Source of the DNA: Desulfobulbaceae bacterium
GTDB taxonomy: Bacteria > Desulfobacterota > Desulfobulbia > Desulfobulbales > SURF-16
Direction of reading: 5' to 3'
NCBI GenBank assembly: GCA_002868945.1
Contig: PKTX01000031.1
Span: 45,908-88,138 of the forward strand
Length of the DNA: 42,231 nt
Shown: piece after piece, positions 3,374-42,231 of the stretch
Numbering within the stretch: position 1 is the first letter of the stretch
Layout of the letters: each line of letters opens with the position of its first letter
Notes under the pieces: generated by a model
The model's input: only the letters and a program-made list of their open reading frames with translations
Database searches by the model: none
What the model was told of the DNA's origin: nothing
Made by a program: the position numbers and the translations under genes

Positions 3374-3530
3374 GTTCCTGTCCAGAAACGGCCTCTCGGA
3401 GTCTAGTAAACTTGCTTACCTGCCCGATCTCCCGGAGTCTCGCGTGGCTGCTTACCTCGTCTTGCTCAAAAAATAATGCTCGGAGGTAAGCGAAACGAAG
3501 TGGAGACTCCGATATAAAATATATGCCTGC
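3374..3530 (+). repeat. dispersed repeat, composite copy A (head part)
   Basis: This stretch is closely similar to 41374-41505 in the same orientation. Both begin with CTGTCC(A/G)GAAA, contain direct units of the core GGAGTCT...GCTTACC (here at about 3397-3421 and 3433-3458), then share CTCAAAAAATAATGCTCGG and an inverted core unit (about 3483-3511). Copy A has one extra core unit of about 25 nt compared with the 41-kb copy. It has no coding capacity and looks like a small mobile or REP-like non-autonomous element. Confidence 0.8.
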
Positions 3531-3537
3531 ACCCCAC

Positions 3538-3656
3538 GGGCACCCGGAGTGTCGCAGGCTCCCTTACCTCTTTCAGGGCGCGTTTTTTATTTTCCATGCT
3601 TCTCAAACTCGAACAGGTGAGCGAGACTCCGAAATATCTGATTATTCAAGATATCC
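3538..3656 (+). repeat. dispersed repeat, copy B1 (inverted partner at 15154-15280)
   Basis: A 119-bp stretch starting GGGCACCCGGAGTGTCGC and ending TCAAGATATCC. Its reverse complement recurs at 15154-15280 with about six substitutions and one 8-nt indel. It has a core unit near each end in opposite orientation (about 3545-3570 and 3615-3631), so the element as a whole is an imperfect palindrome. It follows directly on the 3374-3530 copy. Confidence 0.85.
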
Positions 3657-3794
3657 TCTCATTGTATCAAGATATCCGTAAGCTTTTCTTCTGTTGCCCG
3701 ACTCCTGAATTCTTGTTGAACCAGAAGTTCAAAGATGCTTTTAATCTGTGTAATGCCGAATAGTCACCTCAACTGGACAAGTTGAATCCCTTCT

Positions 3795-15130: not shown

Positions 15131-15153
15131 GGAAAGCCTGACAATGGATTAAA

Positions 15154-15280
15154 GGGGATCTTGAATAATGAGATATTTTGGAGTCTCGCTGGTTCGCTTA
15201 CCTGTTCGAGTTTGAGAAGCATGGAAAATAAAAAGCGCGCCCTGAAAGAGGTAAGGGAGCCTGCGACACTCCGGGTGCCC
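15154..15280 (-). repeat. dispersed repeat, copy B2 (inverted relative to 3538-3656)
   Basis: The reverse complement of this 127-bp stretch matches 3538-3656 with about six substitutions and an 8-nt insertion. Core units lie near both ends in opposite orientation (about 15180-15203 and 15248-15274). It has no coding capacity. Confidence 0.85.
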
Positions 15281-15333
15281 TTGGGAGGCAGCATGTCGAG
15301 TATATGTGAGCATTTTTATTTTCGTAGCGACAA

Positions 15334-38488: not shown

Positions 38489-41278
38489 ATGGATTACAGG
38501 GACACCCTGAACCTGCCAAAGACCAAGTTTAAAATGAAGGCCAACCTCACTCAGAAGGAGCCTGAATATTTAAAAAAATGGCAAAAGGAGAATCTCTACG
38601 GCCGGATCCTGGAGGCCACCAGGGAGCGGCCCAGCTATATCCTCCACGACGGCCCGCCCTATGCCAACGGCCATCTCCACATGGGTCACGCCTTTAACAA
38701 GATTTTAAAGGACATCATTCTTAAATCCAAACGCATGGCCGGCTTCCATGCCCCCTTTGTGCCGGGTTGGGACTGTCACGGTCTGCCCATTGAACTCAAT
38801 GTCGACAAGGAGATGGGCGCCAAAAAGAAGGAGGTGCCCAAGCTCTCCTTTCGGGCCGCCTGCCGCAAATATGCCCAGAAGTGGGTGAAGATCCAGAAGG
38901 AAGAGTTCCAGCGTTTCGGTGTTCTGGGTGACTGGGACGATCCCTATCTCACCATCAAATACTCCTATGAGGCGGCCATTGCCCGCGAGTTTAACCGTTT
39001 TCTGATGAACGGTTCCGTGGTGCGCAGCAAGAAGCCGGTCTACTGGTGCTCCTCCTGTGTCACCGCCCTGGCCGAGGCCGAGGTGGAGTATTATGACCAC
39101 ACCTCAAGCTCTATCTATGTCACGTTTGAGGTGGAGGGCAATCTGGGCGCCCTGGTGCCGGAACTTGCCGACAAGAAGTGTTCGGTGGTGATCTGGACCA
39201 CCACGCCCTGGACCCTGCCGGCCAATATGGCAGTGGCCCTGCATGCCGATTTTGACTACGCTGCTGTGGAGGTTGGCGGCGAGGTATTTATCATGGCCCA
39301 GGCCTTGGTGGAAGAGACCATGGCTCGCTTCGGCCGGAATGACTATCAGCAGCTGGCCCTCTTCTCCGGCAAAGTGCTGGAGGGCCGCACCTGCAGGCAC
39401 CCCTTTCTGGAGCGCCTCTCCAAAATCGTGCTGGCCGATTACGTTACCCTGGAGACGGGTACAGGTTGTGTGCATACCGCTCCTGGTCATGGCCGCGAGG
39501 ATTATCTCACCGGTCTCAACTATGACCTGGAGGTCTTGAGCCCGGTGGATGACCATGGTGTCTTCACCGAAGAGGCGGGACCCTATGCCGGCATGAATAT
39601 CAAGGATGCCAATCCGGTGATCTGCGCAGACCTGGAAAAGAGCGGGCATCTGCTTGCCCGTAATGACATGACGCACAGCTATCCCCACTGCTGGCGCTGC
39701 AAGAAGCCGGTCATCTTCCGGGCAACGGAGCAGTGGTTCATCGGTATGGACAGCAACCGCTTGCGGGACAAGGCCCTGGCCGCAATCAAGGAGGTGCGTT
39801 GGATGCCGAGCTGGGGCATGGAGCGCATCCACGGCATGGTGGAGAATCGTCCCGACTGGTGTCTGTCGCGCCAGCGTGCCTGGGGGGTACCCATCACCGC
39901 TGTTATCTGTGCCAAATGCGGTGATATCATGAACACCGACAAGGTCAACAGCCGTATTGACGACCTTTTCCTCAAAGAGGGTGCTGATGCCTGGTTCAGT
40001 CACGATGTCAAGGATTTCACCGGGCCGGACATGGTGTGCTGGTGCGGTTCCACGGAGTTTCGCAAGGAGGAGGATATCCTCGATGTCTGGTTCGACTCCG
40101 GGGTCAGCTATGCCGCCGTTCTGGAGGAGCGCAATCTGCCCAGCCCGGCCGACCTCTATCTGGAGGGGTCCGATCAGCATCGCGGCTGGTTCCAGAGCTC
40201 ATTGCTCGCCTCGGTGGGCACGCGCGGCACAGCCCCTTATCGGGCCGTGCTCACCCATGGCTTTGTGGTGGATAAGCATGGCAAGAAGATGTCGAAATCC
40301 GTGGGCAACGTCATTGCCCCGGAGGAGATCATCAAGAAGTATGGCGCCGAGATCCTGCGCCTCTGGGTGTCATCCGAAGATTATCGAGATGATATCAAGA
40401 TCTCTGATGAGATCTTAAAACAGCTCTCCGACGCCTACCGCAAGATCAGAAACACCATCCGCTATCTGCTCAGCAATCTTGGTGATTTTAATCCGGCCAC
40501 TGATGCGGTGGATTTTGCCGAGATGGAGGAGCTTGACCGTTGGGCCCTCTGCCAGTATGAGCGCATGAAACGCAAGGTGCGCGGCGGCTATGAGTACTAT
40601 GATTTTCATCACGTCTTTCACGGTCTCCAGCACTTCTGCACGGTGAGTATGAGTAATTTTTACCTTGATATCATCAAGGATCGCCTCTACTCGGAGTTGC
40701 CCGCCTCAAGGCTGCGGCGCTCGGCCCAGACCGTCCTCTATGAGGTCCTGGTGGGTATGTTGAAGCTGATGGCCCCGGTGGCAAGCTTTACCGCCGTGGA
40801 GTCATGGGAATATCTTCCCGAGGATGGTGGCCGCGAGGACAATATCTTCATCGCCCTCTTCCCTGAGGAGAACGACGACTACCTCCAGGATGAGCTGCAT
40901 TCCACCTGGCAGCGTCTGCAGGATGTGCGCGGCGAGATTACCAGGGTGCTGGAGGCGGCCCGACGCGACAAGGTGATCGGCCACCCCCTGGAGGCAGAGG
41001 TGCTGGTGAGCGTCGGTGACGAGCTGGCCGCCTTTCTGGCCGATAAGTGGCAGACCCTGGAGATGATTGCCAACGTCTCGGTGTTGCGCCATGTGCCTGA
41101 GGCACCGGCCGAGGCGGTGGCCAGTGATGAGATAGAGGGGCTTGCTGTGCTGGTCCGCGCTGCGGACGGCGCCAAGTGTGAACGGTGCTGGACGCGCAGC
41201 GACAGTGTCGGGGCCGACAGCGAGCATACCACCCTCTGTAGCCGCTGCTCGAAAGTGGTCCGGCAACTCCTCGGCTAG
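38489..41278 (+). CDS. ileS: isoleucyl-tRNA synthetase
   Basis: A 929-residue class I aminoacyl-tRNA synthetase charging tRNA-Ile. The HIGH-type motif is HMGH (64-67, in PPYANGHLHMGHAFNKI), the KMSKS motif is at 600-604, the editing-domain signatures (VIWTTTPWTLPANMA, CVHTAPGHG) are present, and the C-terminal zinc-binding domain has CERCW and CSRC (about 897-922). Length and layout are those of the bacterial-type enzyme. A GGAG in CACGGAGAGC lies 7-10 nt before the ATG. It is followed by lspA, a common neighbour, but with a repeat-bearing gap of 351 bp between them. Confidence 0.97.
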   Translation: MDYRDTLNLPKTKFKMKANLTQKEPEYLKKWQKENLYGRILEATRERPSYILHDGPPYANGHLHMGHAFNKILKDIILKSKRMAGFHAPFVPGWDCHGLPIELNVDKEMGAKKKEVPKLSFRAACRKYAQKWVKIQKEEFQRFGVLGDWDDPYLTIKYSYEAAIAREFNRFLMNGSVVRSKKPVYWCSSCVTALAEAEVEYYDHTSSSIYVTFEVEGNLGALVPELADKKCSVVIWTTTPWTLPANMAVALHADFDYAAVEVGGEVFIMAQALVEETMARFGRNDYQQLALFSGKVLEGRTCRHPFLERLSKIVLADYVTLETGTGCVHTAPGHGREDYLTGLNYDLEVLSPVDDHGVFTEEAGPYAGMNIKDANPVICADLEKSGHLLARNDMTHSYPHCWRCKKPVIFRATEQWFIGMDSNRLRDKALAAIKEVRWMPSWGMERIHGMVENRPDWCLSRQRAWGVPITAVICAKCGDIMNTDKVNSRIDDLFLKEGADAWFSHDVKDFTGPDMVCWCGSTEFRKEEDILDVWFDSGVSYAAVLEERNLPSPADLYLEGSDQHRGWFQSSLLASVGTRGTAPYRAVLTHGFVVDKHGKKMSKSVGNVIAPEEIIKKYGAEILRLWVSSEDYRDDIKISDEILKQLSDAYRKIRNTIRYLLSNLGDFNPATDAVDFAEMEELDRWALCQYERMKRKVRGGYEYYDFHHVFHGLQHFCTVSMSNFYLDIIKDRLYSELPASRLRRSAQTVLYEVLVGMLKLMAPVASFTAVESWEYLPEDGGREDNIFIALFPEENDDYLQDELHSTWQRLQDVRGEITRVLEAARRDKVIGHPLEAEVLVSVGDELAAFLADKWQTLEMIANVSVLRHVPEAPAEAVASDEIEGLAVLVRAADGAKCERCWTRSDSVGADSEHTTLCSRCSKVVRQLLG

Positions 41279-41629
41279 CCCTGGTGCTCACCGACAAACG
41301 GTTCGAGAACCTGCACCTGCTGTGTCGATCTGCGGCTTCTTGTCACGATTTTAAGTGGGCAGACACTAACTCGTGCCTGTCCGGAAATGGCCCTCTCGGA
41401 GTCTCGCAAACTCGCTTACCGGCCCGATCTCGGCGTCATGCTCAAAAAATAATGCTCGGAGGTAAGCGAAACGAAGTGGAGACTCCGATATCAGATATAT
41501 GCCTGCGCTTATTTTTCTCGCAGTCCTTGATCTCGAACGAAATGACCTATTTCTGGACAGACACTAACTCAATCGGCATTCTTCAAGAAAATGACATTGC
41601 AAGCAACAAGGCACAATCTCAATCTGGCC
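41279..41629. other. ileS-lspA gap, filled by a repeat element
   Basis: About 41374-41570 is the dispersed repeat described separately. The sequence before it (41279-41359) shows nothing recognisable. After it, only about 60 bp remain before lspA. An open frame spans part of the repeat but I judge it non-coding. Confidence 0.6.
41360..41570 (+). repeat. dispersed repeat, copy C (left arm around lspA)
   Basis: The element runs from TGTCCGGAAATGG (41378 on) to CTATTTCTGGACA (ending near 41559), giving imperfect terminal inverted repeats. The 13-bp direct repeat CAGACACTAACTC occurs at 41360-41372 and 41558-41570 and brackets it. It could be a target-site duplication, or element sequence left from a nested copy, because ACACTAA is also part of the arm at 42123. 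Core units are at about 41397-41420 (direct) and 41457-41487 (inverted). Positions 41459-41567 recur inverted at 42123-42231. Confidence 0.85.
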
Positions 41630-42115
41630 ATGCGTCGTTTCTACTTCATGTTCTCCATCCTCTGGGGGGTGGTGGCCCTGGATCAGGCAACTAAATGGTG
41701 GGTCATGGCCTCCTTTGATCTCTATGAGGTTCGGCAGGTGATTCCCGATCTCTTCAATCTGGTTTATGTGCACAACAGCGGCGCCGCCTTCAGTCTGTTG
41801 GCCTCGGCAGAGGGGGTCTGGAAGGAGTGGTTTTTTATCGGTGTGGCCGTGGCTGCCCTGGCCTTTATCCTGCTGCTCTTTAAGCAGTTCTGTGTCCGGC
41901 ATATCCTCTATACCGTGGCACTTGGACTTATCGGCGGCGGCGCCCTGGGCAATCTCATCGATCGGTTGCGTTTCGGCTCAGTGGTGGATTTTCTTGATTT
42001 TTATGTGGCCGACTATCACTGGCCCGCCTTTAACGTGGCGGATTCCGCCATCTGCGTGGGGGTTGGCCTTTTTCTTTTGCAGAACCTGCGCGACGGCAAC
42101 GAAGAGAAGCAATAG
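41630..42115 (+). CDS. lspA: lipoprotein signal peptidase LspA
   Basis: A 161-residue membrane aspartyl protease that removes signal peptides from prolipoproteins. Four hydrophobic segments are visible. The catalytic aspartates are D120 in SVVDFLDF and D138 in FNVADSAI, and VHNSGAAFS and GGALGNLIDR are family motifs. ATG 41630 (MRRFYFMFS) is chosen because it gives the usual N-terminal helix; an upstream in-frame ATG at 41591 would add 13 atypical residues and lies next to the repeat. The gene is enclosed by inverted copies of the repeat family, which is unusual for an essential gene normally co-transcribed with ileS. Confidence 0.95.
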   Translation: MRRFYFMFSILWGVVALDQATKWWVMASFDLYEVRQVIPDLFNLVYVHNSGAAFSLLASAEGVWKEWFFIGVAVAALAFILLLFKQFCVRHILYTVALGLIGGGALGNLIDRLRFGSVVDFLDFYVADYHWPAFNVADSAICVGVGLFLLQNLRDGNEEKQ

Positions 42116-42122
42116 AGATAAT

Positions 42123-42231
42123 TTAGTGTCTGTCCAGAAATAGGTCATTTCGTTCGAGATCAAGGACTGCGAGAAAAATAAGCACAGGCATATATGCGAT
42201 ATCGGAGTCTCCACTTCGTTTCGCTTACCTC
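42123..42231 (-). repeat. dispersed repeat, copy D (right arm around lspA, cut by window end)
   Basis: The reverse complement of these 109 bp matches 41459-41567 with three substitutions. It begins 7 bp after the lspA stop with TTAGTGTCTGTCCAGAAATA and runs to the window edge within a core unit (42203 on). Its full length is not visible. Confidence 0.9.

Follow-up and report, generated by a model that had tools for sequence, protein, structure and literature searches.

Bacterial MITEs, e.g. QMITE1 and QMITE2 of Coxiella (PMC5896051), are non-coding elements of 100–400 bp with terminal inverted repeats, which form a stable stem-loop and are present in many, mostly intergenic, copies. The element described here resembled them in all these features, but its ends (GTGYCTGTCC...) and its 6-bp TANNTA duplications were matched to no named family, its internal length depended on whether a ~25-bp module was present, and no parent insertion sequence was found. 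Invertible promoter or gene switches also resembled the locus in having inverted repeats around a segment. Cyanobacteria have small dispersed repeats (SDR; Elhai et al. 2008, as cited in PMC3116915), short units in hundreds of copies that occur inside other repeats; these were comparable only to a sub-module of the element, which came from a different lineage, had a different sequence and was known here as repeat copies only.

The window, a stretch of 42,231 nucleotides from a Desulfobulbaceae bacterium, ended at the last base of contig C63 (88138/88138). An earlier note had pointed to inverted arms enclosing lspA, and these were reproduced: 41459–41567 and 42123–42231, each 109 nt, were complementary at 106/109 positions (97%), with 555 nt between them and the right arm 7 nt from the lspA stop. 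The pair itself stood, but not its 109-bp length. The right arm stopped where the contig stopped, and the length was therefore that of an assembly edge, uninformative on the size of the repeat; the three terminal bases of the arms (TAA/TTA) were part of target duplications and lay outside the repeat, and the true size of the left copy was 192 bp. The features were as follows.

38489–41278, + strand: ileS (isoleucyl-tRNA synthetase), upstream neighbour of lspA (Pfam tRNA-synt_1, Anticodon_1 and zf-FPG_IleRS)
41356–41369, + strand: possible relict (TGGGCAGACACTAA) of an older copy's right end, immediately 5′ of the left MITE (tentative)
41367–41372, + strand: target duplication TAACTC, 5′ side of the left copy
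41373–41564, + strand: MITE copy 1, complete, 192 bp (from genome matches and the alignment of copies)
41565–41570, + strand: target duplication TAACTC, 3′ side of the left copy
41591–42115, + strand: lspA (signal peptidase II), intact, 174 aa (Pfam Peptidase_A8, E 9.9e-43)
42120–42125, + strand: target duplication AATTTA, 5′ side of the right copy; its partner TAAATT (read outward) at the end of contig C51
42126–42231, − strand: MITE copy 2 in inverted orientation, truncated by the end of the contig after the first 106 of its 192 bp
3374–3662, + strand: degenerate mosaic repeat with the MITE left terminal repeat and sub-modules
15148–15291, + strand: member of a second family of dispersed repeats, also made of these ~23-bp sub-modules

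LspA was 76–80% identical to LspA proteins of the same genus. An Rfam search of the window detected rRNA only.

The arm pair was far beyond chance, and a sequence search found ~40 related copies elsewhere in the genome. When the left arm and its flanks were compared with their own genome, 48 matching pieces were obtained, many of them full copies of 41373–41564; the best full copies were 94–98% identical, and several pieces started or ended exactly at a contig edge. The aligned copies had common 18-nt inverted ends (GTGYCTGTCCRGAAATRG). This exact end was matched 148 times (72 + 76) in the 3.7-Mb genome and never by the reversed control; allowing up to 2 mismatches gave 261 matches, against 3 in the control. 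Among 54 copies with both flanks read, the 6-bp flanks were identical in 26 and had one mismatch in 16, compared with 1.9% and 8%, respectively, when right flanks were shuffled, and the duplicated target had the 6-bp consensus TANNTA. The element was predicted to fold into a strong hairpin (−67.7 kcal/mol, z −4.1), its dispersed copies formed a length ladder of 141–318 bp, and, in the copies read, paired ends enclosed no transposase gene. From its ends, copy number, 6-bp duplications, hairpin and lack of a transposase, the element was therefore a MITE, and the arms around lspA are parts of this 192-bp, non-autonomous, high-copy element. With ~106 elements (counted from exact ends), random placement would give ~2.6 pairs within 860 bp, half of them inverted, and one such near pair needed no special explanation.

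Of the 58 genomes searched (genus, family and order, the element's own genome included), 33 had related DNA, and no match was found in plasmid and phage collections. Searches of the literature by one end sequence, the host group and the IS name gave no description of this MITE family. Two viral contigs contained the 18-mer but were rejected, such matches being at about chance level by our own estimate and having no second end nearby.

The MITE may be mobilised in trans by a transposase, although none with matching ends was found. Among the families searched (DDE_Tnp_1 and Y1_Tnp), three DDE_Tnp_1 genes were detected in the genome, none with MITE ends. A pattern search of ten relatives gave, among the matches listed, MITE-size pairs or lone matches only. 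Two long candidate pairs (L175, 1514 bp; L191, 1317 bp) were discarded for weak ends, unmatched flanks and the lack of a transposase-like ORF. A RAYT link of the sub-module was also rejected: none of the eight Y1_Tnp genes in the genome was near a module.

The left copy had TAACTC at both ends, and the right copy started at 42126, after AATTTA. Among the MITE-borne contig ends read, one, the end of C51, had the complementary flank TAAATT. It carried the other half of a copy, with a 17-nt overlap with C63; joining the two gave a copy of exactly 192 bp, which matched the left one at 187/192 positions, and the next gene on C51 was fabD, the gene that follows lspA in relatives. This join was deduced from the duplication and the overlap, not from reads. 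A second contig pair (end of C71 and start of C25) fitted in the same way by TGATTA/TAATCA and was broken at the same position, as would be expected if an assembler breaks near-identical repeats at one place. The right copy was only partial in the window since the assembly broke inside the MITE.

Contig ends inside the MITE were seen in this genome at C13, C14, C20, C22, C25, C36, C39, C43, C48, C49, C51, C54, C58, C60, C63, C64, C71, C72, C75 and C81.

That the inverted pair was an assembly artefact, the contig having been wrongly extended at the right arm into a collapsed repeat, could be argued from at least 20 exact ends lying no more than 250 bp from a contig edge and from some copies containing N from scaffold joins. 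However, the matching half with its complementary duplication and the expected fabD were found at the end of C51. Furthermore, when the right flanks were joined with a single AATTTA, an unbroken alignment to L078 and G001 was obtained, i.e. the empty right site, so that the flanks of this copy restored the ancestral sequence. Such an artefact was accordingly judged very improbable.

As for gene order, L078 and 14/15 relatives agreed in the order and orientation of ileS, lspA and fabD; in the 15th (L105) lspA-fabD was present and ileS was beyond the fetched stretch. In L078 (apparently the same as G003) these genes were followed by further genes. Comparison of the ileS-lspA interval thus gave one fixed orientation, and the congeners G001 and G002 had neither MITE copy at the locus. 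The left empty site could not be aligned base by base, because the ileS-lspA spacer was not conserved. In G003/L078 this spacer contained a 70-bp short family member (L078 3545–3614), a minimal one of both ends and a short core, with its own TAACTA duplication.

The possible relict at 41356–41369 matched the end of this 70-bp copy, in the same spacer, at 14/15 nt; 4/500 shuffles scored as well, and the remaining ileS-lspA spacer was unalignable. An ancestral 70-bp copy common to the two sister genomes in this spacer was considered and rejected, its support being 14–15 nt only.

A palindrome, imperfect and reading GCCACGGAATCCACGGAAGGCACGGAAA ... TTCCGTGGATTCCGTGGC in relatives, was present in the lspA-fabD spacer; it was seen at the end of C51 beyond the right MITE, in L078 (4218–4300) and in L098. 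It was probably another repeat or a terminator.

Each copy had its own 6-bp duplication and the relatives kept ileS-lspA-fabD without these copies. These results indicated two independent insertions and not a composite unit, in agreement with one proposal of the earlier note, two inverted insertions of the element. Thus, two 192-bp MITE copies were very probably inserted independently, in opposite orientations, around lspA in a conserved ileS-lspA-fabD row, each insertion duplicating its 6-bp target.

The earlier note had also suggested a phase-variation switch, in which recombination between the arms would flip lspA relative to ileS and turn it off. The arms were indeed inverted, 192 bp long and 187/192 identical, and near-identical inverted arms of this length are in principle enough for RecA-dependent exchange; a rare RecA-type inversion between them is physically possible. 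However, wherever all three genes were matched in a relative, lspA pointed the same way as ileS and fabD, only one orientation being seen in these genomes (as read from assemblies, not reads). The arms were dispersed genome repeats, each copy with its own target duplication. Unlike the locus of an invertible switch, this one had no linked invertase or other site-specific recombinase and no dedicated inversion sites, its neighbours being ileS, lspA and fabD. lspA is normally essential in Gram-negative bacteria. The gene was single-copy in this genome, so an “off” state would be unlikely to be tolerated. The suggestion thus found no support; the inverted pair is probably not an on/off switch, and a phase switch at this locus is highly unlikely. 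The remaining proposal, that the two MITEs moved lspA as the cargo of a composite mobile unit, fitted two inverted copies of one element around one gene but was refuted and can practically be dismissed, since lspA was at its native locus as in relatives, the duplications bounded each copy and not the pair as a whole, and no second gene-length lspA-like match was found in the genome.

With two independent insertions as the preferred reading, their effect on lspA would be small. No sigma-70-like promoter was found in 41200–42231, and terminator-like sites in this region included one in each MITE copy. Because of the strong hairpin and the lack of such a promoter, little effect beyond possibly altered read-through from ileS would be predicted, and any consequence of the MITEs would probably concern only read-through from ileS to lspA and from lspA to fabD.

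The length ladder had rungs at 141, 165–168, 192, 219, 243 and 264–267 bp; size classes 193 and 209 contained N and may be scaffold joins. Alignment of the copies attributed the steps between them to a 27-bp block and to a ~23–27-bp module (CGGAGTCTCGY-NNN-CTCGCTTACC), which a copy could have or lack at three internal sites and which was at times repeated in tandem (up to four). In the left MITE the sub-module (GGAGTCTCGYNNRCTCGCTTACC) was located at 41398–41420 and 41461–41486. Allowing up to 2 mismatches, the module had 323 matches in the genome and none in the control, and it was present in 19/28 genomes searched (its own included). In the fetched stretches, 44/50 exact modules were near a MITE end (the stretches overlap, and some modules were counted twice); other modules were part of two or more additional repeat families.

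Within the window, 3527–3624 and 15194–15291, which are 11.6 kb apart in module-built mosaic repeats, were inverted copies at 95%.

The variation could be due either to movement of the module itself or only to deletion and duplication. SDR units are reportedly about 21–27 nt long. A micro-module of ~23–27 bp that inserts or excises precisely at several sites inside MITEs and other repeats throughout the order, i.e. an SDR-like element outside cyanobacteria, is conceivable but rather doubtful.

The tempting reading of lspA as a switch or cargo was thus removed. It exemplified a trap of draft genomes, in which contigs end inside high-copy MITEs and a cut copy near another one mimics an inverted pair made for a purpose; contigs broken in this way (C63-C51 and C71-C25) could be rejoined by means of the target duplications. 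For this order of bacteria, the finding is that a MITE family with modular sub-repeats is widespread.
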